Shown here: positions 10,958 to 29,121 of the stretch, in pieces
How positions within the stretch are numbered: position 1 is the first letter of the stretch
Layout of the letters: each line of letters begins with the position of its first letter
Virus record (IMG/VR): IMGVR_UViG_3300042987_000250
Span: 1-29,121 of that record
DNA from: a virus
DNA length: 29,121 nucleotides
Reading direction: 5' to 3' (one strand)
Position numbers and translations under genes: made by a program
Notes under the pieces: generated by a model
Told to the model about the DNA's origin: nothing
Seen by the model: only the letters and a program-made list of their open reading frames with translations
Databases searched by the model: none

Positions 10958-13180
10958 TTGGCTAAGTCCGTCTCCAACAAGAAGTCGTTCACGTTCGTGG
11001 CTGGCCTCAACACTGAGGCTGGCCCACTGACGTTTCCCCCTAACACCTGGGCTGATGGCATCAACATCATCCCGGATGTGGATGGGAGTCTAGTGAAACG
11101 TCCGTCCATCAACTACGAGAACGCCTATGCGCTTAGCGCCAAGCTCACTGGTCCCGTAGCTGAGGAAACGGGAGCGTTCGTCTGTGGAGAATGGAACTCT
11201 GCTGGCGGTAACGGAGCGTACAACTTCGTTGTCGTCCAGCGTGCTGACAAACTGTACATCTACACGAATAGTGGAGATGGCATCTCTCCGACGGAGCAGC
11301 CGCTAGTTGAGATTCTGCTTGCCACTTACAAGGTGCCAGGCAATCCCAACGCTTCAGGTGTAGCACCGTGCTCGTTCAGTAATGCGAACGGACGGTTGCT
11401 CGTCACAAGCGCTGACACCTACCCGCTGCTTCTCACCTACACCGTATCCACCGGTATCTTCAGTGCCAGTGTGGTCACCATCTACTTCCGTGATGTGTAC
11501 GGAGTGACAGACGGACTGGCTGTCAACAATCAGCCTGCCACGCTATCCAACGAGCACAAGTACAACCTGTACAACCAGGGGTGGACAGACACCAACATCA
11601 ACTCCTACTTCGCTTCTCAAGCTAAGTACCCGTCCAACGCACAGGTGTGGACTGCAGGGAAGGATGCGAGTGACAACTTCGACCCTACGCTACTCGTCAA
11701 GCAAGACTTTGGTACGACGCCTGCAGCCAAGGGGCGCTTTGTCCTCAACCTGTTCTACCGAGATCGAGACAGTGCAGCAGGGATTGCTGCTGGTCTAGTG
11801 TCCAGCGAACTCTACTACCCAACCACCTGTACATTCTACGCAGGACGTGCGTGGTATGCAGGGATGAAGGGATCCGACATCTCCACGTGGGTGCTGTTCA
11901 GTCAGGTGGCTGACGACAACACCAAGTTCGGCTACTGCTACCAGGAAGCAGACCCCACCTCCGAGTTCATCTCCGATCTGGTGGACACGGACGGGGGTGT
12001 GATTCCCATCCAGGATGCAGGCAACATCATCTGCTTGAAGTCGGCATACAACTCCCTCCTTGTGTTCGCTGAGAACGGAGTGTGGCAGATCAGTGGGGGC
12101 TTGGATCAGGGCTTCAGTGCCACCTCCTACGAGGTTAAGAAGCTCAGCTCTGCTGGTTGTGTGGGTGCACAAACTGTGGTGGAGGCGGAGAACAATGTGT
12201 TCTTCTGGTCTCAGGATGGTATCTGGCGGATCAGTCCTACTGACACTGGAACGCTCAAGGTTGAGAACATCACCAACCTCACCATACACACCCTGTACGC
12301 AGCTATCCCGGTGTCGGGTCGAACCTACGCCAGTAGCCGCTACCACCTCGAAGGGAAGTGTGTGTACTGGCTGTACAACGATGACGATGAGCAAGATGGG
12401 GTGAGCCGAAGGTACAAGAAGAACAAGATGCTGGTGCTGGACCTGCGCCTTCCTGCGTTCTACGTCCACTCCATCAGTTCGTTGTCGCCTACCACGCCAT
12501 ACATCACTGACCTCTGCATCACCAAGACTCGGCAGTCACTCTCCAGTGACTACGATGTGGCAGATTCCAGTGGCAGCTTGGTTGTGGATGGGTCAGGTAA
12601 CCAGGTGGTAGCCACCCTCATTCCGGCTGTTCTTAGGAACACGGATGTTCGCTTTATGACGGTGGTTCCGTCAGGTGCCAACTTCACGCTCACCTTCTCG
12701 TCGTTCGATGACGGCATCCAGACGACGCACAAGTTCAAGGATTGGTACACCTACGATTCGGTGGGCACCACCTACGCCTGTTATCTGTTGACAGGGCATG
12801 ACCTAGGGAACAACCAGGGCGGGGATCGACACATCCAGGGACTGTACATCACGTGCTTCTTCCGTCGCACGGAGACAGGTGTGGACTCTCTTGGCAATCC
12901 GATTGGTGCGTCAAGCTGCACGCTGCAAACGCGGTGGGATTGGACCGATGCGTCCATCGCAGGGAAGTGGAGTGCAGGGGAGGAAGTGTATCGGCATCGA
13001 CGTGCCTTCTTCCCGGACGTGCCTAGTGTGTCGTACGGGGATGGTTATCCGGTGGTTACGTCGAAGAGTAAGGTGAGGGGGCGAGGTAGATCGGTACAAC
13101 TGCTGTTCACTGCAGCCGCAGAAATGGACATGCAACTACTTGGTTGGGCGATCACCTACATTGGAAACCAAAACGTTTAA
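10958..13180 (+). CDS. Tail tubular protein B-like (gp12-type nozzle)
   Basis: A 740-residue beta-rich protein, the expected size for the T7 gp12-like tail nozzle. N-terminal block KSFTFVAGLNTEAGPLTFPPNTWADGINIIPDVDGSLVKRP matches the family start; later blocks include CTFYAGRAWYAG (residues about 288-299), VFAENGVWQISGG (about 368) and FFWSQDGIWRISP (about 415), characteristic propeller-like strands. It starts with TTG right after the preceding TAA; no ATG fits the conserved N-terminus. A dyad copy lies at P-A-V-L-R-N. The next gene overlaps its end. Confidence 0.88.
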   Translation: MAKSVSNKKSFTFVAGLNTEAGPLTFPPNTWADGINIIPDVDGSLVKRPSINYENAYALSAKLTGPVAEETGAFVCGEWNSAGGNGAYNFVVVQRADKLYIYTNSGDGISPTEQPLVEILLATYKVPGNPNASGVAPCSFSNANGRLLVTSADTYPLLLTYTVSTGIFSASVVTIYFRDVYGVTDGLAVNNQPATLSNEHKYNLYNQGWTDTNINSYFASQAKYPSNAQVWTAGKDASDNFDPTLLVKQDFGTTPAAKGRFVLNLFYRDRDSAAGIAAGLVSSELYYPTTCTFYAGRAWYAGMKGSDISTWVLFSQVADDNTKFGYCYQEADPTSEFISDLVDTDGGVIPIQDAGNIICLKSAYNSLLVFAENGVWQISGGLDQGFSATSYEVKKLSSAGCVGAQTVVEAENNVFFWSQDGIWRISPTDTGTLKVENITNLTIHTLYAAIPVSGRTYASSRYHLEGKCVYWLYNDDDEQDGVSRRYKKNKMLVLDLRLPAFYVHSISSLSPTTPYITDLCITKTRQSLSSDYDVADSSGSLVVDGSGNQVVATLIPAVLRNTDVRFMTVVPSGANFTLTFSSFDDGIQTTHKFKDWYTYDSVGTTYACYLLTGHDLGNNQGGDRHIQGLYITCFFRRTETGVDSLGNPIGASSCTLQTRWDWTDASIAGKWSAGEEVYRHRRAFFPDVPSVSYGDGYPVVTSKSKVRGRGRSVQLLFTAAAEMDMQLLGWAITYIGNQNV
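12629..12640. repeat. Dyad site 6, GTTCTTAGGAAC
   Basis: Perfect copy in the nozzle gene, read as V-L-R-N. Confidence 0.9.
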
Positions 13181-20000: not shown

Positions 20001-20049
20001 TCAACCAATGGTTGTCACGCAACCACCTAGGAACACTAATGGCAAGTAA
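14011..20049 (+). CDS. Giant internal virion protein with ART-like and zincin-like segments
   Basis: A 2012-residue polyvalent virion protein. Residues about 475-530 (FHGG, then GFIGSGEG and LGWGHYLSPSEAFAEKY) match the ADP-ribosyltransferase-like module common in large phage proteins. Residues 791-797 give the zinc motif MAHEFGH, with SFAEWWAEN (873-881) as a likely third-ligand helix, so a metallopeptidase-like domain is probable. The C-terminal third contains NLNLGMFNPAQLIVQANGAA and an amphipathic region typical of ejected internal proteins. The protein probably enters the host with the DNA or lines the ejection channel. Activity of either domain is inferred from motif similarity only. 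Three dyad sites lie inside, plus one variant. Confidence 0.8.
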   Translation: MEDVSLLPDEAAEAPIESVLPDPPAEPPTLVLKNDQEVAGMLALASNPADFSKSFKTMLPAVQAGNHAPILSDILVKEKEENIQAARAAALSAAQAYDVQKARLAIEQERQLQNQSTDATTDPTRALHAASVRALEETGLEEAARRWRDFNAVNKAIDGASASFVTRQLLSAAASKTEESATSWDKVKAFFTDIIPGITAFDNRLLAKHFGEKVGESFVFNTYAHAQAIRDVLMNLPPSEQQKLLEAVVTDTSMNPARKADLLRKLAEMTKEEFVADSAFRLLDATLVGDALKLLSGVARKGLPGKLLKDVAGEDTAGKAVAADILNKTNITGWTNEELVARALAAGKMPFDIDPAAAAGLNASTQKMLRDKYNSMLDEIQSRLNSSGMTKEEMAKAAGQIRDSYMQSTDKSLYDVHFGEASVDGQKVTLFLQDNSGKVFLTKEAAVEHALREGIVDFKVVPVTAARMGPIHAQTAFHGGSVVNKFDDGFIGSGEGWDSLGWGHYLSPSEAFAEKYASRFGGRLSSWDIPETSTMVHWDAPFAEQPAVVQKAASKLLKMDEDVLRNMAGSDIYNAVKDKFGSAKAASQRLYKEGVKGNYQAANPGLSRTPEYVVFNAKDAKFKFVRDVEETAAFPRVEEPPIEVDGQVFFNMARADAQGLPVPKANGNARTAFDKGEKLFQDGKTLEHSDAVHDKYGKVMEGWMDFLHFPLQDRVLLIEAEDIALLHKRLGLDDQYWKEQFLRLYVATKGANGTHTYIDIPTGKNTHQRVHIITVNDSVLKGRFSNWLPVMAHEFGHAFDRAVLAHAPVETRKALFNEFKTYMLSVRKDTPLRQFVGEYRSHSTSTWDSVMGGTYDNATVGQLSRGSLEWYGSFAEWWAENFAKYMMTETRPVGIVAQFFYDHVQKLKAFFAKVAAQFGDRAVKPSDLTKKFLDEYLDRGGMTYFPLSKNPIDDAIKEAAGVPISESMRHDTSTLLGGTGRAVQSENDVGALLRPREEPSAPGWVLQVERTDPYSYYAIGKFSDKDIESMPFFAIDPKHRASEQAVEARVVGVHGEAKVRKEFTDFIMPFYKKLSRAGVQRVEALLKDGDSYSNLGGVGREFTATEAMARGLSHDEAAAYLATRQLRMAMYFVKNKELVQHMRASGLKEVELTGTGIRTAGSRLSEDMAVVQLGGKQVYDYLNLANKKVTADSIRELYAQGKSIIRLAKPVNIEGELRRHLIVDAETAKVREIQTALSYRPGEYARIYSDEYFITRTVNRMVDGELQPVTEVLRTAASAREADEFVTGVKAAIDVLKNGGGDDLLQRHIGRYFDVSEFRARYAEGEFDGMTDLSHHFTRNQEEYLNGSVREALAYGRTFYSERNEKVMGMNPLKENTLGVFESLEREITNTSRVANITQWREQMVRRWMNTFGDLIPNRTGDDVADFFSAADAHFTAGGKEAQFAQRTHRYIMRQIGLRTQEERLYEQVTRQLTEKFFTGNEKIESVGAKIRQMGVLGFIRNINFNLNLGMFNPAQLIVQANGAATALILSPMHGAAAAKTFPLLRMALMSDNPDVWKFMGKIDATLFGDADEFQKLVKAVRQTGIIDNIRSTALHNLEDGKLNIFNGYPQRVLGSHAFFFNRGEEFARLVSFDVARREWMAANKGMDWTSKEALAQILVRQDDLTQNMTRANLARFQEGALSIPMQFAQYNIKLAANVMSALLGKGEGRGFTKTEALTLMGGHILLYGAAGNGIAWLVDELMSKDTKESLSETQKTYIAQGLLSGLLNQVGEWFTGEKMNVALGSRLGAFDYYHQLGKAIFTDPKNIYEALLGPTVGTAKRWSVAMDVAKLMWKDPNRSGQDVLEGLAQLTTEQVATLRNAAKAYLYTIHQGKMLDKNGVAVGKVNSNEILAQALGFQPTMAMDVHNLIQAKKDHNEALDDIARLIMKVQRDIMTARLRGDHKYAEEQHKLLTALWPENAGDVQAVRTRIRDRLYPYDSEFQKLLGEYMWKGQTYDQPMVVTQPPRNTNGK
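14101..14112. repeat. Dyad site 7, GTTCTTAAGAAC
   Basis: Perfect symmetric copy 90 bases into the giant virion gene; read as V-L-K-N. Confidence 0.9.
15697..15708. repeat. Dyad site 8, GTTCTTAGGAAC
   Basis: Perfect copy just after the ART-like segment of the giant gene, V-L-R-N. Confidence 0.9.
17893..17904. repeat. Dyad site 9, GTTCTTAAGAAC
   Basis: Perfect symmetric copy, middle of the giant gene, V-L-K-N. Confidence 0.9.
19420..19431. repeat. Dyad variant, GATCCTAAGAAC
   Basis: One mismatch at the second base; late in the giant gene, D-P-K-N. Confidence 0.6.
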
Positions 20050-22519
20050 GCGCACTGACTACTCTGTTCAACTGCCGGACATTTCCAATCCTGTCAAGGG
20101 AAGTGCCGGTGAGTTGTATGAACAAGCTGGCCGTACCGAAGGGCAGGCCAATGCCACACGAGGGCAAGCTGAAGCGATTGGCACCAAGGCCAACACTGAT
20201 GCGTTGTCGTTCCTAGGAACAACGGGCATTGCTGCAGCCAAGGGGTACTTGGAGTCGGAGGAAGGGAAGGAGATCCAGAATACCATCGACTGGACTGAGG
20301 AGATTGGCGCTAAGGGTAAGGTCACTCAGGAAGAGGCACGCCAGTTCAACAACAGCCAGGTGGCTATCGCTAGCGTCATGGGAGAGATGGGTGCTACCTA
20401 TCGTCCTGAGATGGCAGCGATGTCTGATGAAGGACAGCGCATCATGGAGGCTGTCAATCAGGGTGTTCTCAGCAAAGAAGAGGCTATCACTCGCATCTCT
20501 GCCACTGTGAAGAAGTACAGTGCAATGATGCCTGGGTGGGCTGCTGACTTCCGTAAGGTGGCTGCTGACTTAACTGGTATTGAGAAGGCTGACGTTCTTC
20601 CTGTACACAGTTTCTTCACTAAACAAAGTGCTAGGGAGAAAGAGCTAGAGAAGCGACGTGAAGTACAGCTTCAACTAGATAGAGAAACAGCTAGCTACTT
20701 TGGTATCTCTCTTGATCAACTGAGTCCTGAGTATCGTAAGAGCTATGCTCAGATCAAGGGAGTGAAGGCTGCACAGGAGGAGTTGAAGGCTAAGTTAGAG
20801 ATGGGCAACCTTGCCCAAGGGGAAGCTGACAAGGCGTACAGCCAGATGGTGACGCTCGATGTGGCGGCACAATTGGCTACGATGAATGCTGACTTGGTGA
20901 AGCTTGGTGCTCTGCACGCAGATCCGAAGCAGTTCATCGAGGCGCAGCAGTTCGGACTACAGCTCTCGACTAAGATCGGACTGATGTACAACGCTGTCAG
21001 TCAGCGTGTACGTGAGATGGTGAAGCCTGATCCGTCACGTCCGTCCCTGTCCGCTGATCACGCGCAGAAGCTCATCGACTCGATGAAGAAGGACTTTGAC
21101 TCCTACCAAGAAATGGTGAAGTCGGCAGAGGGACGCAACATGTTCCTGAACATTGCCAAGAAGAGTGAGAACGATGTCACCGTATTGATGAACAACTTCG
21201 CGTTGGCTGCTCCACACACCCACATCCTGGGTAAGTATGGTGTGCTGCCTCCTGTCTTCCAGGCATACATGTCGATGATGGATCCACAGGAGTTTGAGAA
21301 GAGGTTTCCTCGCCTCAGTGGGCCGATGCAAGCCCTACTTAATCCCCCTTCACAGCAGATGTACGCTGGTCTGTTCGGCTCCATTGTAGGAGGTCAGCCT
21401 GTCGACTTGAGGGAAGTGGCTAAGCTCAATCCCGACATGGCTAAGGTGTGTGCGACTGACCTACTGGAGTGTGCCAAGGAATGGAGTAAGGATGCGAACG
21501 CTACGCCTGAGAAGAAGGTGGCGTGGCGTAACGCAATGGGAGAGCTTGGTCGTACGCTCAACTTCAGTGTACCCAAGGACATCGACGCTGCCACTAAGGC
21601 AGTAGAGACTCCGCAGTTCAAGACGTTCGTAGAGGGACTGTCGTACACGGATAAGAACGCTGCTCTTGCACCCCTCCTCGCGTCCATTGAGACGGCAACA
21701 CGCAACAACATCACCGAACTCAATTCGGCTGTAGCTGCGTACAACAACGATCCTGACAACAAGGCAGTGGCTGCGGGTTGGCGCTTGCGCGTTGAGCAAG
21801 ATCCGATCAGCAAGCAACTGAAGGTTGTGCCAGTGAACGTGCTACGTGCAGATCAATGGGCTCCGCCTGCCAACCAGATTGGTACGTGGACTATGGGTGG
21901 GAAGGTGGGAGGGATTACCAGTCCCGCTGGTGTGGGACAGAACGCTCGTGCTGCACAACAGAGGGCAGTAGAGGTAGCGCTGAAGATTAATAAGGGAGCG
22001 GAAGTGTATTACAACGTGGGTCAGATGCTTGATGTAGCTGACCTGGGAAGCACAGTGGCGTTCCGTGACCACGTGTTCAGCATGACCACCACACCAGGGA
22101 AGCCCCTCTCCAGCGCCTTCACACAGCAGTTGGAAGCCACGTCGAATGCTCCTAGGAACAGAGCTGTCGAGCCGATGGTAGACGCCCTCGGCATGGCAGA
22201 GAGCGGTGGAAAGAACGTAGTGGGGGATGGAGGGAAGGCTGTGGGTGTGTACCAGATGCACCCTGAAGCGATGGTGGATGCAGGCTTCAAGCCTGAAGAT
22301 CGCACTGATCCCGTGAAGAGTAGGCAAGCTGCCATCAACTACTTCGGCAAGCAACTCGAAACCTACGGGGATGTGCTCAAGGCTATCGCTGCCTGGAACA
22401 TGGGACCGACAGGCTTTGCCAACCACCTTCAGAAGCATGGAGACATGTGGATGATGGAGCTGCCTGACGCCACTAAGGGACTCATCCGTCGCTTCCGCGA
22501 GCACTACAAACCTAAGTAG
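20039..22519 (+). CDS. Internal virion protein with C-terminal lytic transglycosylase
   Basis: An 826-residue helical protein from ATG 20039 (SD-like AGGA about eight bases upstream, itself half of a degraded dyad). A longer frame reaching to 19832 reads into the upstream gene and is unlikely. Residues 1-700 are helical and rich in Ala, Lys, Gln, as in ejected internal proteins. The C-terminus is a soluble lytic transglycosylase domain: catalytic Glu probably E721 in GMAESGGKN, then GDGGKAVGVYQMHPEAM and later LKAIAAWNMGPTGF. It would open the peptidoglycan for the ejection channel. In T7 the transglycosylase is N-terminal in gp16; here it is C-terminal. Confidence 0.85.
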   Translation: MASKRTDYSVQLPDISNPVKGSAGELYEQAGRTEGQANATRGQAEAIGTKANTDALSFLGTTGIAAAKGYLESEEGKEIQNTIDWTEEIGAKGKVTQEEARQFNNSQVAIASVMGEMGATYRPEMAAMSDEGQRIMEAVNQGVLSKEEAITRISATVKKYSAMMPGWAADFRKVAADLTGIEKADVLPVHSFFTKQSAREKELEKRREVQLQLDRETASYFGISLDQLSPEYRKSYAQIKGVKAAQEELKAKLEMGNLAQGEADKAYSQMVTLDVAAQLATMNADLVKLGALHADPKQFIEAQQFGLQLSTKIGLMYNAVSQRVREMVKPDPSRPSLSADHAQKLIDSMKKDFDSYQEMVKSAEGRNMFLNIAKKSENDVTVLMNNFALAAPHTHILGKYGVLPPVFQAYMSMMDPQEFEKRFPRLSGPMQALLNPPSQQMYAGLFGSIVGGQPVDLREVAKLNPDMAKVCATDLLECAKEWSKDANATPEKKVAWRNAMGELGRTLNFSVPKDIDAATKAVETPQFKTFVEGLSYTDKNAALAPLLASIETATRNNITELNSAVAAYNNDPDNKAVAAGWRLRVEQDPISKQLKVVPVNVLRADQWAPPANQIGTWTMGGKVGGITSPAGVGQNARAAQQRAVEVALKINKGAEVYYNVGQMLDVADLGSTVAFRDHVFSMTTTPGKPLSSAFTQQLEATSNAPRNRAVEPMVDALGMAESGGKNVVGDGGKAVGVYQMHPEAMVDAGFKPEDRTDPVKSRQAAINYFGKQLETYGDVLKAIAAWNMGPTGFANHLQKHGDMWMMELPDATKGLIRRFREHYKPK
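20209..20220. repeat. Dyad site 10, GTTCCTAGGAAC
   Basis: Perfect symmetric copy with the CTAG centre (the only one), near the 5' end of the transglycosylase gene, frame F-L-G-T. Confidence 0.9.
22148..22159. repeat. Dyad variant, GCTCCTAGGAAC
   Basis: One mismatch at the second base, 40 bases upstream of the transglycosylase catalytic Glu codon, A-P-R-N. Confidence 0.6.
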
Positions 22520-22595
22520 CGTAGTACGGCAGGCGCTGCACTACATACACCAAGAACCACAACGCAAGGAGAAGTACAACAATCCATTTGAACAT
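22512..22595 (-). CDS. Possible 27-aa single-helix membrane peptide, antisense
   Basis: On the minus strand an ATG at 22595 opens a 27-codon ORF starting MFKWIVVLLLALWFLVYVV, then QRLPYYAT and TAG. It is one near-perfect membrane helix with a basic-aromatic flank, and it spans almost exactly the + strand gap between the transglycosylase stop and the lysozyme frame. A TTG four codons upstream could also start it. The RBS is weak, and the strand is opposite to its neighbours, so it would need transcription running past the terminator region at 23050. Size and hydrophobicity would suit a holin- or regulator-type peptide. May be chance. Confidence 0.35.
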   Translation of the reverse strand: MFKWIVVLLLALWFLVYVVQRLPYYAT

Positions 22596-22606
22596 CAGTA
22601 GGTCCA

Positions 22607-23044
22607 ATCATCAACACAGGGGAACGAGGCGTAAGCCTCATCAAAGAGTTCGAGAAGTGGGAACCTGAAGAGTACATCTGTCCCGCTGGCAAACGAACCA
22701 TAGGATACGGACACGTAATCCAAGAGGGAGAAGAGTTCACCTACCTTACTGAACCAGCAGCAGCTCTTTTGCTTGCGCATGACCTTGCTCCTCGTGAGCA
22801 GGCAGTGAACAAGTATGTGAAGGTGAAGTTGACGCAGAACCAGTTCGATGCACTGGTCAGCTTTGTCTACAATGTGGGGGTGGAAGCATTCCGTACCTCA
22901 ACGCTGTTGCGTAAGCTGAACAACGCTGACTACGTGGGTGCAGCAGCAGAGTTCAAGAGGTGGAAGTATGGCGGAGGGAAAGAGCTTCCTGGCCTGGTGA
23001 GGCGCAGGAAGCGAGAAGAACAGTTGTTCCTAAGAACCGACTGA
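22607..23044 (+). CDS. GH24 phage lysozyme (endolysin), start uncertain
   Basis: The frame carries a complete T4/P22-type lysozyme: GERGVSLIKEFEKW, then YICPAGKRTIGYGH, and later LTQNQFDALVSFVYNVG. Counting from 22607, the catalytic set is E16, C25, T31, with the 8- and 5-residue spacing of the E-C-T class. It cleaves peptidoglycan to release progeny. No ATG, GTG or TTG exists in frame between the upstream in-frame TGA (22589-22591) and the catalytic residues; TTG at 22769 would remove the active site. I placed the start at the ATC at 22607 only because the domain begins there. About 145 residues. The gene ends through a dyad site, 9 bases before the terminator. Confidence 0.75.
   Translation: MINTGERGVSLIKEFEKWEPEEYICPAGKRTIGYGHVIQEGEEFTYLTEPAAALLLAHDLAPREQAVNKYVKVKLTQNQFDALVSFVYNVGVEAFRTSTLLRKLNNADYVGAAAEFKRWKYGGGKELPGLVRRRKREEQLFLRTD
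23026..23037. repeat. Dyad site 11, GTTCCTAAGAAC
   Basis: Perfect copy over the last codons of the lysozyme (F-L-R-T), 15 bases before the terminator stem. Confidence 0.9.
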
Positions 23045-23224
23045 CTTAGAAGAAGCCCCCTCCTCGGGGGCTTTTTCTTTGATGATGTCGTCTAGCTTGT
23101 CAATGCTAGTGATGATCAGTGTGTTAGGAGGAGTGGTTGCGTACTCCTCAAATTCCCCAACGAGATCACCTAGTGTCTCAAAGGGTGGGTCAGATGGAGA
23201 GTTTGAGTTGTTGCGGGTAGGCAT
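23030..23224 (-). CDS. Small hypothetical protein, end of minus-strand operon
   Basis: A 64-residue acidic protein from the ATG at 23224, which has AAGGAG six bases upstream; an upstream ATG at 23239 is a poorer start. The sequence begins MPTRNNSNSPSDPPF and runs through GDLVGEFEEYA and IITSIDKLDDIIKEKAPEE. Its 3' end lies over the + strand terminator and overlaps the end of the lysozyme by about 15 bases. It overlaps the upstream 68-aa gene by 35 bases. No family recognised. The good RBS favours a real gene, the overlap with the terminator makes this less certain. Confidence 0.5.
   Translation of the reverse strand: MPTRNNSNSPSDPPFETLGDLVGEFEEYATTPPNTLIITSIDKLDDIIKEKAPEEGASSKSVGS
23053..23080 (+). 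terminator. Intrinsic terminator of the late operon
   Basis: AAGCCCCC (23053-23060), loop TCCTC, GGGGGCTT (23066-23073), then T-run TTTTTC TTT. Efficient on the + strand; on the minus strand the downstream tract is CTTCTTCT, so weaker. Marks the meeting point of the two transcription units. Confidence 0.9.
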
Positions 23225-24183: not shown

Positions 24184-24511
24184 AGGTAAATCTCCCAGTT
24201 ACTAAGTCTCGATTGAACCTCTTTGATCGTCTATATCTGTGCTGCTGGTTGATAGCATGTGTGCCCAACTCAAGGTGCGTTGGATTGACACACGCTGCGT
24301 AATCACAAGTGTGTAGTACCCACATCCCTTCCGGTATAGGACCGTTGTGCAACTCCCACACAACGCGGGGTGCTGGAACCCATCGCTTGTTGACTTTCAT
24401 CTTTCCACGACCACCTTTAAGACAGGAACCTGTCCATCTAACACATCCGTCTTCTTGTACTTTTGAGTGACGACGGATGCGCTCCTCTATCGGTATCTTA
24501 TGAGCAGGCAT
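24173..24511 (-). CDS. HNH homing endonuclease (HNH_3 type)
   Basis: A 112-residue free-standing endonuclease. The first half has CVRWTGS and WVPAPRVVWELHNGPIPEG, the second the HNH core MWVLHTCDYAACVNPTHLELGT, where His and the CDYAACVNPTHLELGT loop provide the metal site. Proteins of this type cut DNA at a specific site in related genomes, spreading their own gene. Its ATG overlaps the stop of the ribonucleotide reductase gene (TGATG), so it lies next to that gene's 3' end with no gap; no intron is implied since the reductase frame is whole. Its tail is basic. Confidence 0.85.
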   Translation of the reverse strand: MPAHKIPIEERIRRHSKVQEDGCVRWTGSCLKGGRGKMKVNKRWVPAPRVVWELHNGPIPEGMWVLHTCDYAACVNPTHLELGTHAINQQHRYRRSKRFNRDLVTGRFTCGS

Positions 24512-26178
24512 CAGCTACCGCACACCCCGCCCTTTCCACTAATCTCACAAATGTCGTTCTCGGCAAAAACAACACCTTTGTGTTTCACTGCTTCTTCGTA
24601 CTCTACTTCGACGAGAGGTTGACCTCCTCGACTTCCATCTGGGTAACAGGTAAATCCCCGGAGTCTAGGAGCGTAACCAGCGAGTGTGTCAGCAAACGCA
24701 GCAACACGGGATTCGTTATTGCTTGCACTTCCCCAAGCAGGAAGGTTGATTGTGCTGGATATGGACATGTCAACGTAATCTTGTACGTCCGCCTGGAATC
24801 TGATGCGTCGTTCTGGATCATCCGCTAGCTGCCTCGCCGTCTCGATGTCCCTAGGATTGATGTCGTACTCCCTAATCAGGTGGTCAGCAGTGGCATCCAC
24901 TACATACTCGTAGTGCCATCGCGTTCCGTCCTTGAGATAACGTCGCTTGTAAGCCACAGCAAACAGAGGCTCGATACCAGTAGTAGTAGCAGCGAGTATC
25001 CCAATGCTGCCAGTGGGAGCAATAGCCCGGTATGCCACAGGATGATTAAGGAATAGCCGATCACAATGCTCGTCAGCAGCGCGTTTACTTTCGTCCCGAT
25101 ATACAGCAAGCCAACTGTGGAGTTCAGTTCCGACTTCATACCGTAGTCCCCTCTTAAGCAACCACTCGTGGATGCCCATCAGTCCTAGTCCGATGCGTCT
25201 GTTCTTTTCCCGTACAGCTTTGACTCTCTCATTAGGAAGCTCAGCGCGTACAGTGCCGCACACCAGAAACATGCTAGCAAGACGGACGACATCAACCAGT
25301 TCAGCAATGGAACCCACAGCCCCAAGGTTGACAGACCCAAGATTGCACACGTCGCTATCATCGCTGCTAGTAACTTCTGTGCACGCATTCCTAAGTGTCT
25401 CATTCTGCTTCTCTCCGAAGTTGAAGCTGAACCCTGGTTCCCCTGTCTTCAACGCCTGCTCGACGTTCTTAAGAAACACTGGGTTGTGCTGCAGGCCACC
25501 CACCAATGATGCGTCGTCGTAGTTGACGGAGATGTTGGTCATGTCCAGCGGAGCGGGGTAGTTGAAGTCTGCGTTCTTTGCATCCCACACTGTCTGCCCT
25601 GTGCCTGCTATCTCCTTCGAGTGCCAGTCCTTAGCAGTGAGGAACGCTGGCGTGTCCTCGTGCTGCCAGTTGAGCGACGCATAGATCGCTGACCTCCGAC
25701 TCCCACCCTGCATGACGTTGCGTCCGATCTCGTTGATGGCGTACATGAGCGGGAGCGGCCCACTAGCTTTACCACCAGTCCGAGACAGAAGACGACCACT
25801 AGGACGGAAAACAGAGTAATCAATTCCAATACCTCCACCCATACAGAGACAGCTCATGGCATCGTGTACCAATCGAGCCCATTCCTCGCGGGTGTCTTCC
25901 TGTCCCTTCAACAGGTAGCAGTTGTTGTATGCTTTCATGGGACGCCCTGCGTAGTACAGGTAACGCCCACCAGGAATGAACTTCATCTCAGCGATGTACT
26001 GCGTCAGTTGCTTTCGATCTGACTCCGACATCAGCGCATGTACCGTACCACCACGAGTACCACACACGTCATCTACAACCCGGTAAGCTAGGTTGTCCCA
26101 ACTGTCTGCACTACTAAATGCGTACTTCTGAAAGAAGATGTGTTCAGCGAATGGAGTCTTGAATCTATTTGGTTGCAC
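24511..26178 (-). CDS. nrdJ: Class II (B12-dependent) ribonucleotide reductase
   Basis: About 555 residues from GTG 26178, preceded by GAGAAGG; the longer frame to 26292 lies in the HNH gene and is unlikely. It reduces ribonucleotides to dNTP precursors. Active-site residues: C87 (NNC), N264-C266-E268 in NACTE, C278 in CNLGS, PTGSIG (388-393) for the substrate loop, and a C-terminal cysteine pair C544/C553 for re-reduction. The ending RGFTCYPDGSRGGQPL is typical of the adenosylcobalamin-dependent class, and no NrdB-like partner is visible. Host cobalamin would be needed. No intein or split seen. A one-mismatch dyad lies inside. Confidence 0.9.
   Translation of the reverse strand: MQPNRFKTPFAEHIFFQKYAFSSADSWDNLAYRVVDDVCGTRGGTVHALMSESDRKQLTQYIAEMKFIPGGRYLYYAGRPMKAYNNCYLLKGQEDTREEWARLVHDAMSCLCMGGGIGIDYSVFRPSGRLLSRTGGKASGPLPLMYAINEIGRNVMQGGSRRSAIYASLNWQHEDTPAFLTAKDWHSKEIAGTGQTVWDAKNADFNYPAPLDMTNISVNYDDASLVGGLQHNPVFLKNVEQALKTGEPGFSFNFGEKQNETLRNACTEVTSSDDSDVCNLGSVNLGAVGSIAELVDVVRLASMFLVCGTVRAELPNERVKAVREKNRRIGLGLMGIHEWLLKRGLRYEVGTELHSWLAVYRDESKRAADEHCDRLFLNHPVAYRAIAPTGSIGILAATTTGIEPLFAVAYKRRYLKDGTRWHYEYVVDATADHLIREYDINPRDIETARQLADDPERRIRFQADVQDYVDMSISSTINLPAWGSASNNESRVAAFADTLAGYAPRLRGFTCYPDGSRGGQPLVEVEYEEAVKHKGVVFAENDICEISGKGGVCGS
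25465..25476. repeat. Dyad variant, GTTCTTAAGAAA
   Basis: One mismatch at the last base; inside the reductase gene, minus strand reading F-L-K-N. Confidence 0.55.
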
Positions 26179-26539
26179 GTTGCGCCTTCTCTTTGTTGGT
26201 CTTTTTCTTGTGGCACGGTTTACACAAGACTTGTAGCTTCTTGGCTTCCACGTACAATCGTTCGATGAACGTGTCCCAATTGACGAACCCAACCTTGGGA
26301 TCGACTACAGCCTTCACGTGATCTACTTGGACTTCCTTGGCAGGGAATTCCTTCTTGCAAGCCTGGCACGTGTAGTGCATGGCCAGCTTCCCAGTCTTGG
26401 GATTGATGCGGCGCTCCGTCGCTGCGTTCCTAAGAACATCAAACTTGGGAGGCCAGCGTCGAAACGCCGCTCTCAATGCGCTGACTATGAAGGATTTGTA
26501 TCGAGCTTCAGTCCAGCGCCCGCCGTTCCTAGTCGTCAA
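26165..26539 (-). CDS. HNH endonuclease
   Basis: About 124 residues from a TTG at 26539 (the frame opens further but has no good start there). N-terminal TTRNGGRWTEARYKSFIVSALRAAFRRWP is followed by the HNH core: HYTCQACKKEFPAKEVQVDHVKAV (residues about 57-80) and KKLQVLCKPCHKKKT at the C-terminus, giving CxxC and CxxCH zinc/structural pairs around the His-metal site. The lysine-rich tail is DNA-contacting. It is the second endonuclease gene, on the other side of the reductase, overlapping its start by 14 bases. A perfect dyad lies within. Confidence 0.8.
   Translation of the reverse strand: MTTRNGGRWTEARYKSFIVSALRAAFRRWPPKFDVLRNAATERRINPKTGKLAMHYTCQACKKEFPAKEVQVDHVKAVVDPKVGFVNWDTFIERLYVEAKKLQVLCKPCHKKKTNKEKAQRATK
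26426..26437. repeat. Dyad site 13, GTTCCTAAGAAC
   Basis: Perfect copy in the upstream HNH gene; minus-strand reading V-L-R-N. Confidence 0.9.
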
Positions 26540-26696
26540 ACGGAACGTCAGTGATACCGAACTTCGACTTGTGATCGAGGATGTGATCAGGGAACCGATC
26601 CAGGATGTCTTCCAGATCGATTTCAAGCAGATCAATCAAGTCGTGTACATCTTCAACTTGGCGGGAGACGATGTCCCGGATTTCAGGCATTCGCAT
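26529..26696 (-). CDS. Small acidic hypothetical protein
   Basis: A 55-residue protein from ATG 26696 (or 26690), beginning MRMPEIRDIVSRQVEDVHDL and continuing IDLLEIDLEDILDRFPDHILDHK; strongly acidic and probably a short helical hairpin. It overlaps the metallophosphoesterase stop by 14 bases and the HNH start by 11, which fits the operon's tiling. No family recognised; the pattern is seen in small phage proteins of unknown role. Confidence 0.6.
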   Translation of the reverse strand: MRMPEIRDIVSRQVEDVHDLIDLLEIDLEDILDRFPDHILDHKSKFGITDVPFDD

Positions 26697-28692: not shown

Positions 28693-29121
28693 TTACGCAG
28701 CCTTTCGATCCGCTTCAGTCAGCTCGTTTTCTACTTCCTCCATGTCCAGATCCCCACAGCTATACGCCTCGAACTTGCGAGCCACCTTGACGATGAGATC
28801 TGCCACTTCCTCATACTTGCAGGTCTCAGTCGAGGCGTCGTACAGAGTGGACGGGATGTGTGTACATACCAGCTCACGCGCATTGGTCAGCGCGTTCTGG
28901 CGCACAATGGCACGTTGGCCATCAAGCGGAGGAATAGGGAACACCCCTTTACCGCCATAGGAGGGGACGACTGCTGCAGCAGTCTTAGCTCCAGAGGGAG
29001 AGGTAGTGGGGGTTCCCTTAGTGATGGACGCAGGGTCAACATCCTTCCCATACGAGCCATCCGTATAGGAGAACGTGGCACTATCGCCGACATTCAGGTT
29101 GTGCTTCTTGAAACCGGTGGA
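28693..29121 (-). CDS. Partial gene, C-terminal 142 residues, unknown
   Basis: The minus-strand frame is open to the right window edge, so the start is outside; a GTG at 28944 is internal. Visible parts are FKKHNLNVGDSATFSYTDG near the edge, a Pro/Ser/Thr-rich linker (TKGTPTTSPSGAKTAAAVV), then GVFPIPPLDGQRAIVRQNAL and a helical region, LTNARELVCTH... EEVADLIVKVARKFEAY, with an acidic end. The edge part could be the last strands of an OB-like domain, but I cannot name the family with confidence. It leads the visible minus-strand operon and is three bases from the next gene. Confidence 0.6.
   Translation of the reverse strand, partial: STGFKKHNLNVGDSATFSYTDGSYGKDVDPASITKGTPTTSPSGAKTAAAVVPSYGGKGVFPIPPLDGQRAIVRQNALTNARELVCTHIPSTLYDASTETCKYEEVADLIVKVARKFEAYSCGDLDMEEVENELTEADRKAA

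Follow-up and report, generated by a model that had tools for sequence, protein, structure and literature searches.

T4-type lysozymes (PF00959, GH24), such as the Acinetobacter prophage muramidase (6et6), the PHAb10 enzyme (9kbq) and P22 lysozyme (2anv), share a domain, a fold and an active site with the spacing E-x8-C-x5-T. The phage lysozyme gene analysed here has all of these traits, but differs from them in lacking an ATG, GTG or TTG start codon and in encoding no N-terminal signal-arrest-release segment. The textbook example of initiation at another codon is E. coli infC, which starts at AUU and is autoregulated by IF3, according to the references given in PMC9845219. The lysozyme gene resembles infC, as well as the rare genes starting at AUU, AUC, AUA or CUG, in its putative non-canonical AUN start behind a Shine-Dalgarno (SD) sequence; in contrast to infC, the codon is AUC, and the IF3 loop is a feature of infC. 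Bacterial ribosomes can initiate at AUC, with low efficiency: ATC has been listed among the rare starts of E. coli (PMC5597208), and in B. subtilis a lacZ fusion with an AUC start is expressed, at a much reduced level (PMC10303841). The codon also figures in the start list of NCBI table 11. A literature search of limited scope found no phage endolysin with AUC as its only plausible start. Gene 26 of phage T4 has an internal AUU start and is hence a phage gene with an AUN start, as is putatively the gene described here; in T4, however, the AUU serves a second product, while here AUC would be the sole start of the enzyme.

The gene lies in a 29,121-nucleotide stretch of DNA, positions 1 to 29,121 of IMG/VR virus record IMGVR_UViG_3300042987_000250 (hereafter the window). 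The portal protein is similar to those of SIO1, ICP2 and their relatives, and on this basis we take the phage to be a podophage of the Zobellviridae kind. By its sequence, the gene is a genuine phage endolysin gene of an ordinary and common family, with predicted muramidase activity. Its product matches the full Phage_lysozyme domain (PF00959, E=2.3e-44, profile positions 1-125 of 125) and also endolysin PHROGs. The active-site residues are E21, C30 and T36, numbered from the beginning of the open frame, and both E21 and T36 are invariant in an alignment of 19 sequences (A1). The AlphaFold model of the protein (mean pLDDT 92) has its nearest matches among solved muramidases of phages and prophages, with a TM score of 0.87 to 6et6, and a sequence search for solved homologues retrieved the same families (for example, 9kbq and 6et6). 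Model confidence averages 70 over residues 1-10 and 96 over residues 11-20, which is consistent with the codons upstream of 22610 lying outside the enzyme. The residues up to the catalytic Glu (TSVGPIINTGERGVSLIKEFE) include no hydrophobic N-terminal segment of the kind found in SAR endolysins. The features of the locus are collected in Table 1.

Table 1. Features of the lysozyme locus (window coordinates).
Feature	Position	Strand	Remarks
Virion protein with C-terminal SLT lytic transglycosylase domain	20039..22519	+	PF01464, E=4e-11, residues 706-799
Stable hairpin directly 3′ of the TAG of the SLT gene, no T run	22521..22544	+	By folding
AAGGAG, strong SD match	22566..22571	+	No usable start at normal spacing
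In-frame TGA 5′ of the lysozyme	22589..22591	+
SD-like CAGUAGGUC	22596..22604	+	5 nt 5′ of AUC 22610; duplex -4.6 kcal/mol
ATC, most likely start codon	22610..22612	+	Initiator-Met column of A1; precedes the catalytic Glu by 14 codons
Phage lysozyme (T4-type muramidase, GH24)	22610..23044	+	About 144 aa if read from AUC 22610; PF00959
Small hairpin GAGGC-GUAA-GCCUC	22626..22640	+	About 16 nt 3′ of AUC 22610
Intrinsic terminator-like hairpin	23057..23080	+	3′ of the lysozyme, end of the rightward transcript

The lysozyme is encoded in an open frame of 150 codons (22592-23044), which is shared by two upstream stops, the TGA that precedes it and the TAG that ends the preceding gene (22517-22519). 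From the TGA to the catalytic Glu at 22652 the frame contains not a single ATG, GTG or TTG. When all forward frames are considered between 22520 and 22651, there is a single such codon, TTG 22588, and it belongs to another frame than the lysozyme. The first canonical start in frame is TTG 22769; it lies downstream of all active-site residues (Glu 22652, Cys 22679 and Thr 22697), so that initiation there would deprive the protein of its active site. A preliminary description of this DNA had reported an endolysin frame with an intact active site and no standard start codon, and both the frame scan and the PF00959 match bear it out; the landmarks that it listed (TAG 22517-22519, TGA 22589-22591, AAGGAG 22566-22571, AGTAGGT 22597-22603 and ATC-ATC 22607-22612) are all where it had placed them. 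That the leader has so few start codons is not in itself a signal: 20 random codons would lack a canonical start with p ~0.38, and the single start found in 22520-22651 compares with a mean of 1.7 in dinucleotide shuffles (p = 0.30), a scarcity accounted for by the A/C-rich composition. What makes the absence notable is that a real and intact enzyme follows, and that all 69 of the other distinct lysozyme 5′ ends do have a start there.

These 69 come from a set of 70 distinct 5′ ends, gathered from IMG/VR and bacterial genomes, in which the lysozyme of the window is the only one without a canonical start before the Glu. When 39 distinct relatives were read back to the preceding stop, every one showed a canonical start, separated from the catalytic Glu by 11-17 codons, and in 15 of them (14 ATG, 1 GTG) it stands exactly 14 codons before the Glu, that is, in the column of ATC 22610. 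An AUN start at this position is carried by one population only, the relatives with ATG or GTG being about 50% identical. The preliminary description had proposed that the anomaly would be refuted by relatives that start normally at this position. Such relatives do exist, but as different phages of about 50% identity; their starts locate the expected start and do not remove the anomaly here. A search for closely similar 5′ ends in which the third base of the start codon was left free returned the same contig alone. Near relatives sought by the SLT protein were limited to the same population in IMG/VR, with none among phage records, and neither collection yielded a closer relative with the same gene arrangement.

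Alignment A1 places the second codon of the ATC pair, ATC 22610, in the initiator-Met column, the adjacent ATC 22607-22609 being an alternative candidate. The SD-like sequence lies at a normal spacing from ATC 22610. Its duplex is moderate rather than strong and comparable with those of many genes in the window, most of which fall between about -2 and -11 kcal/mol. The stronger AAGGAG upstream is probably a relic or a chance match. A phage-encoded initiator tRNA was considered and rejected, as neither the window nor the 13 kb piece of a longer contig next to it contains a tRNA. The structure of the leader RNA as a whole (22500-22670) is not unusual (z -0.7). Within it, the segment containing the hairpin after the preceding stop (22515-22550) folds at -12.5 kcal/mol (z -1.75), and the segment with the GUAA tetraloop (22605-22660) has a z of -2.4; this second hairpin might influence initiation. 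The spacer before the lysozyme is also filled by an antisense ORF, MDLLMFKWIVVLLLALWFLVYVVQRLPYYAT (or from ATG 22595), at 22512-22607 (-), encoding a membrane-like peptide of 27-31 aa with a single membrane span. It was discarded as the true gene of this stretch: even a threshold of E<=10 brought up no match among phages, and Pfam gave none.

To assess the reliability of the sequence, we compared the window with a second IMG/VR contig, 3300047550_000638 (G001, 38 kb), which covers it completely. Both differ by two substitutions in 29,121 bases, at 20363 and 26768, and are identical over 22400-23150. With a second contig identical in the region, a base-calling or assembly error at the lysozyme start, one of the options raised in the preliminary description, is unlikely. 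Because both contigs represent the same population, they amount to one biological observation and provide no independent evolutionary evidence.

The gene preceding the lysozyme encodes the SLT virion protein, which matches a PHROG annotated as lytic tail protein. The nearest contigs by this protein, G002 and G003 (34% and 31% identity), also have a gene directly after it, encoding a Peptidase M15_3 in G002 and a DUF5675 protein in G003; unlike the lysozyme of the window, both genes have their own ATG, overlapping the SLT stop. In these two contigs the gene in the slot is followed by an opposite-strand lipoprotein-like gene, none of which was seen in the window. Since G002 and G003 carry other genes in the same slot, the lysozyme is probably a cassette swapped in for another lysis gene. 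Among 50 contigs with a shared capsid protein, a lysozyme match was found in one, and it was weak. A GTA_holin_3TM holin (PF11351) is encoded just 5′ of the window in G001, and the proteins that were scanned include no second recognisable endolysin. Given this upstream holin and the lack of a second recognised endolysin, some lysozyme is probably needed by the phage; as the phage genome is incomplete, another endolysin may exist elsewhere in it.

Further upstream in G001, 5′ of window base 1, lie two paralogous tailspike-like genes in tandem, whose N-terminal domains are similar, followed by a 63-aa membrane protein and then by the holin. What had looked like a frame break in the upstream tailspike turned out to be these two tandem genes. 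Start codons other than ATG are found at several genes. TTG or GTG starts overlap or touch the previous stop at window position 10958 and in the genes at 24511-26292 (-) and 26165-26635 (-). Reading by eye, an HNH-like protein has a TTG at its likely homologous start and a ribonucleotide reductase has a GTG near its conserved N-terminus; a tail protein starts at TTG. The phage seems to make free use of weak start codons.

The explanation that we consider probable is that this is a genuine endolysin gene which has replaced another lysis gene in the slot, and that it is translated from AUC 22610-22612. Among the start options listed in the preliminary description, this codon is the one best supported, by its place in the Met column and by its SD spacing, while read-through, re-initiation and frameshifting found little support. 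The chief rival is that a recent point mutation removed the start and left a crippled gene, decaying or leaking weakly, its role being covered by another enzyme or the lineage being defective. We regard this as unlikely, yet to be taken seriously. AUC is one base away from the start of the relatives, and the plain loss of a start codon would leave just such a single-base difference from ATG. Moreover, lysis genes are often exchanged in the slot, making turnover normal, and AUC is carried by a single population; as both contigs belong to it, they do not bear on whether AUC is kept over evolutionary time. Against such a loss stand the 150-codon frame with all of its active-site residues intact, the lack of any other recognised endolysin in the parts scanned, and the presence of the variant in both contigs. 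The sequence of one population cannot separate the loss of the start from initiation at AUC.

The remaining explanations are far less probable. An artefact common to both contigs, or a population whose majority sequence differs, is conceivable for metagenome contigs from closely similar populations, but agreement at 29,119 of 29,121 bases, the absence of long homopolymers in the window and the lack of any other noticeably broken gene make it highly improbable. We give as little credit to the production of lysozyme by stop read-through or re-initiation from the SLT virion protein. Both proteins are in the same frame, which is expected by chance in one case out of three, and a UGA with a following A, as found here, is a leaky stop context. 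Read-through would nevertheless need the suppression of two serial stops (TAG 22517 and TGA 22589), re-initiating ribosomes would have about 90 nt to cross, a hairpin follows the TAG, and the genes in the slot of the relatives start at their own overlapping ATG. Least probable of all is a start at the out-of-frame TTG 22588 with a subsequent +1 frameshift into the lysozyme frame: this TTG is the sole canonical start nearby and has the AAGGAG upstream, but the motif ends 16 nt before it, too distant for normal placement, inspection by eye revealed no recognised slippery sequence, and the peptide of that frame is unlike a lysozyme N-terminus.

If translation does start at AUC 22610, CAGUAGGUC would position the ribosome ahead of it, and the initiator fMet-tRNA would mispair with AUC at the third codon position, so that lysozyme would be synthesized at a low level. 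IF3 discriminates against AUC, and in E. coli this codon falls far short of AUG in strength. The lysozyme is hence probably made weakly, from a non-standard start, and we infer that this weakness is tolerated or useful; it may be a way of keeping lysozyme low, as the preliminary description had suggested. A stronger version, in which AUC is a selected rheostat that throttles the endolysin and thereby delays or limits lysis, tied to the IF3 level of the host or aided by the GUAA hairpin, appears doubtful to us.

Non-canonical starts are a known type, of which this one is a rare variant, and the enzyme itself is ordinary. If the AUC start is true, gene finders restricted to ATG, GTG and TTG would miss or truncate the only recognised lysis enzyme of this phage, and the gene would be a natural example of one of the weakest start codons driving the synthesis of an essential-type enzyme. 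A lysozyme with an AUC start would hence offer a testable case for the minimum amount of endolysin that a phage needs.
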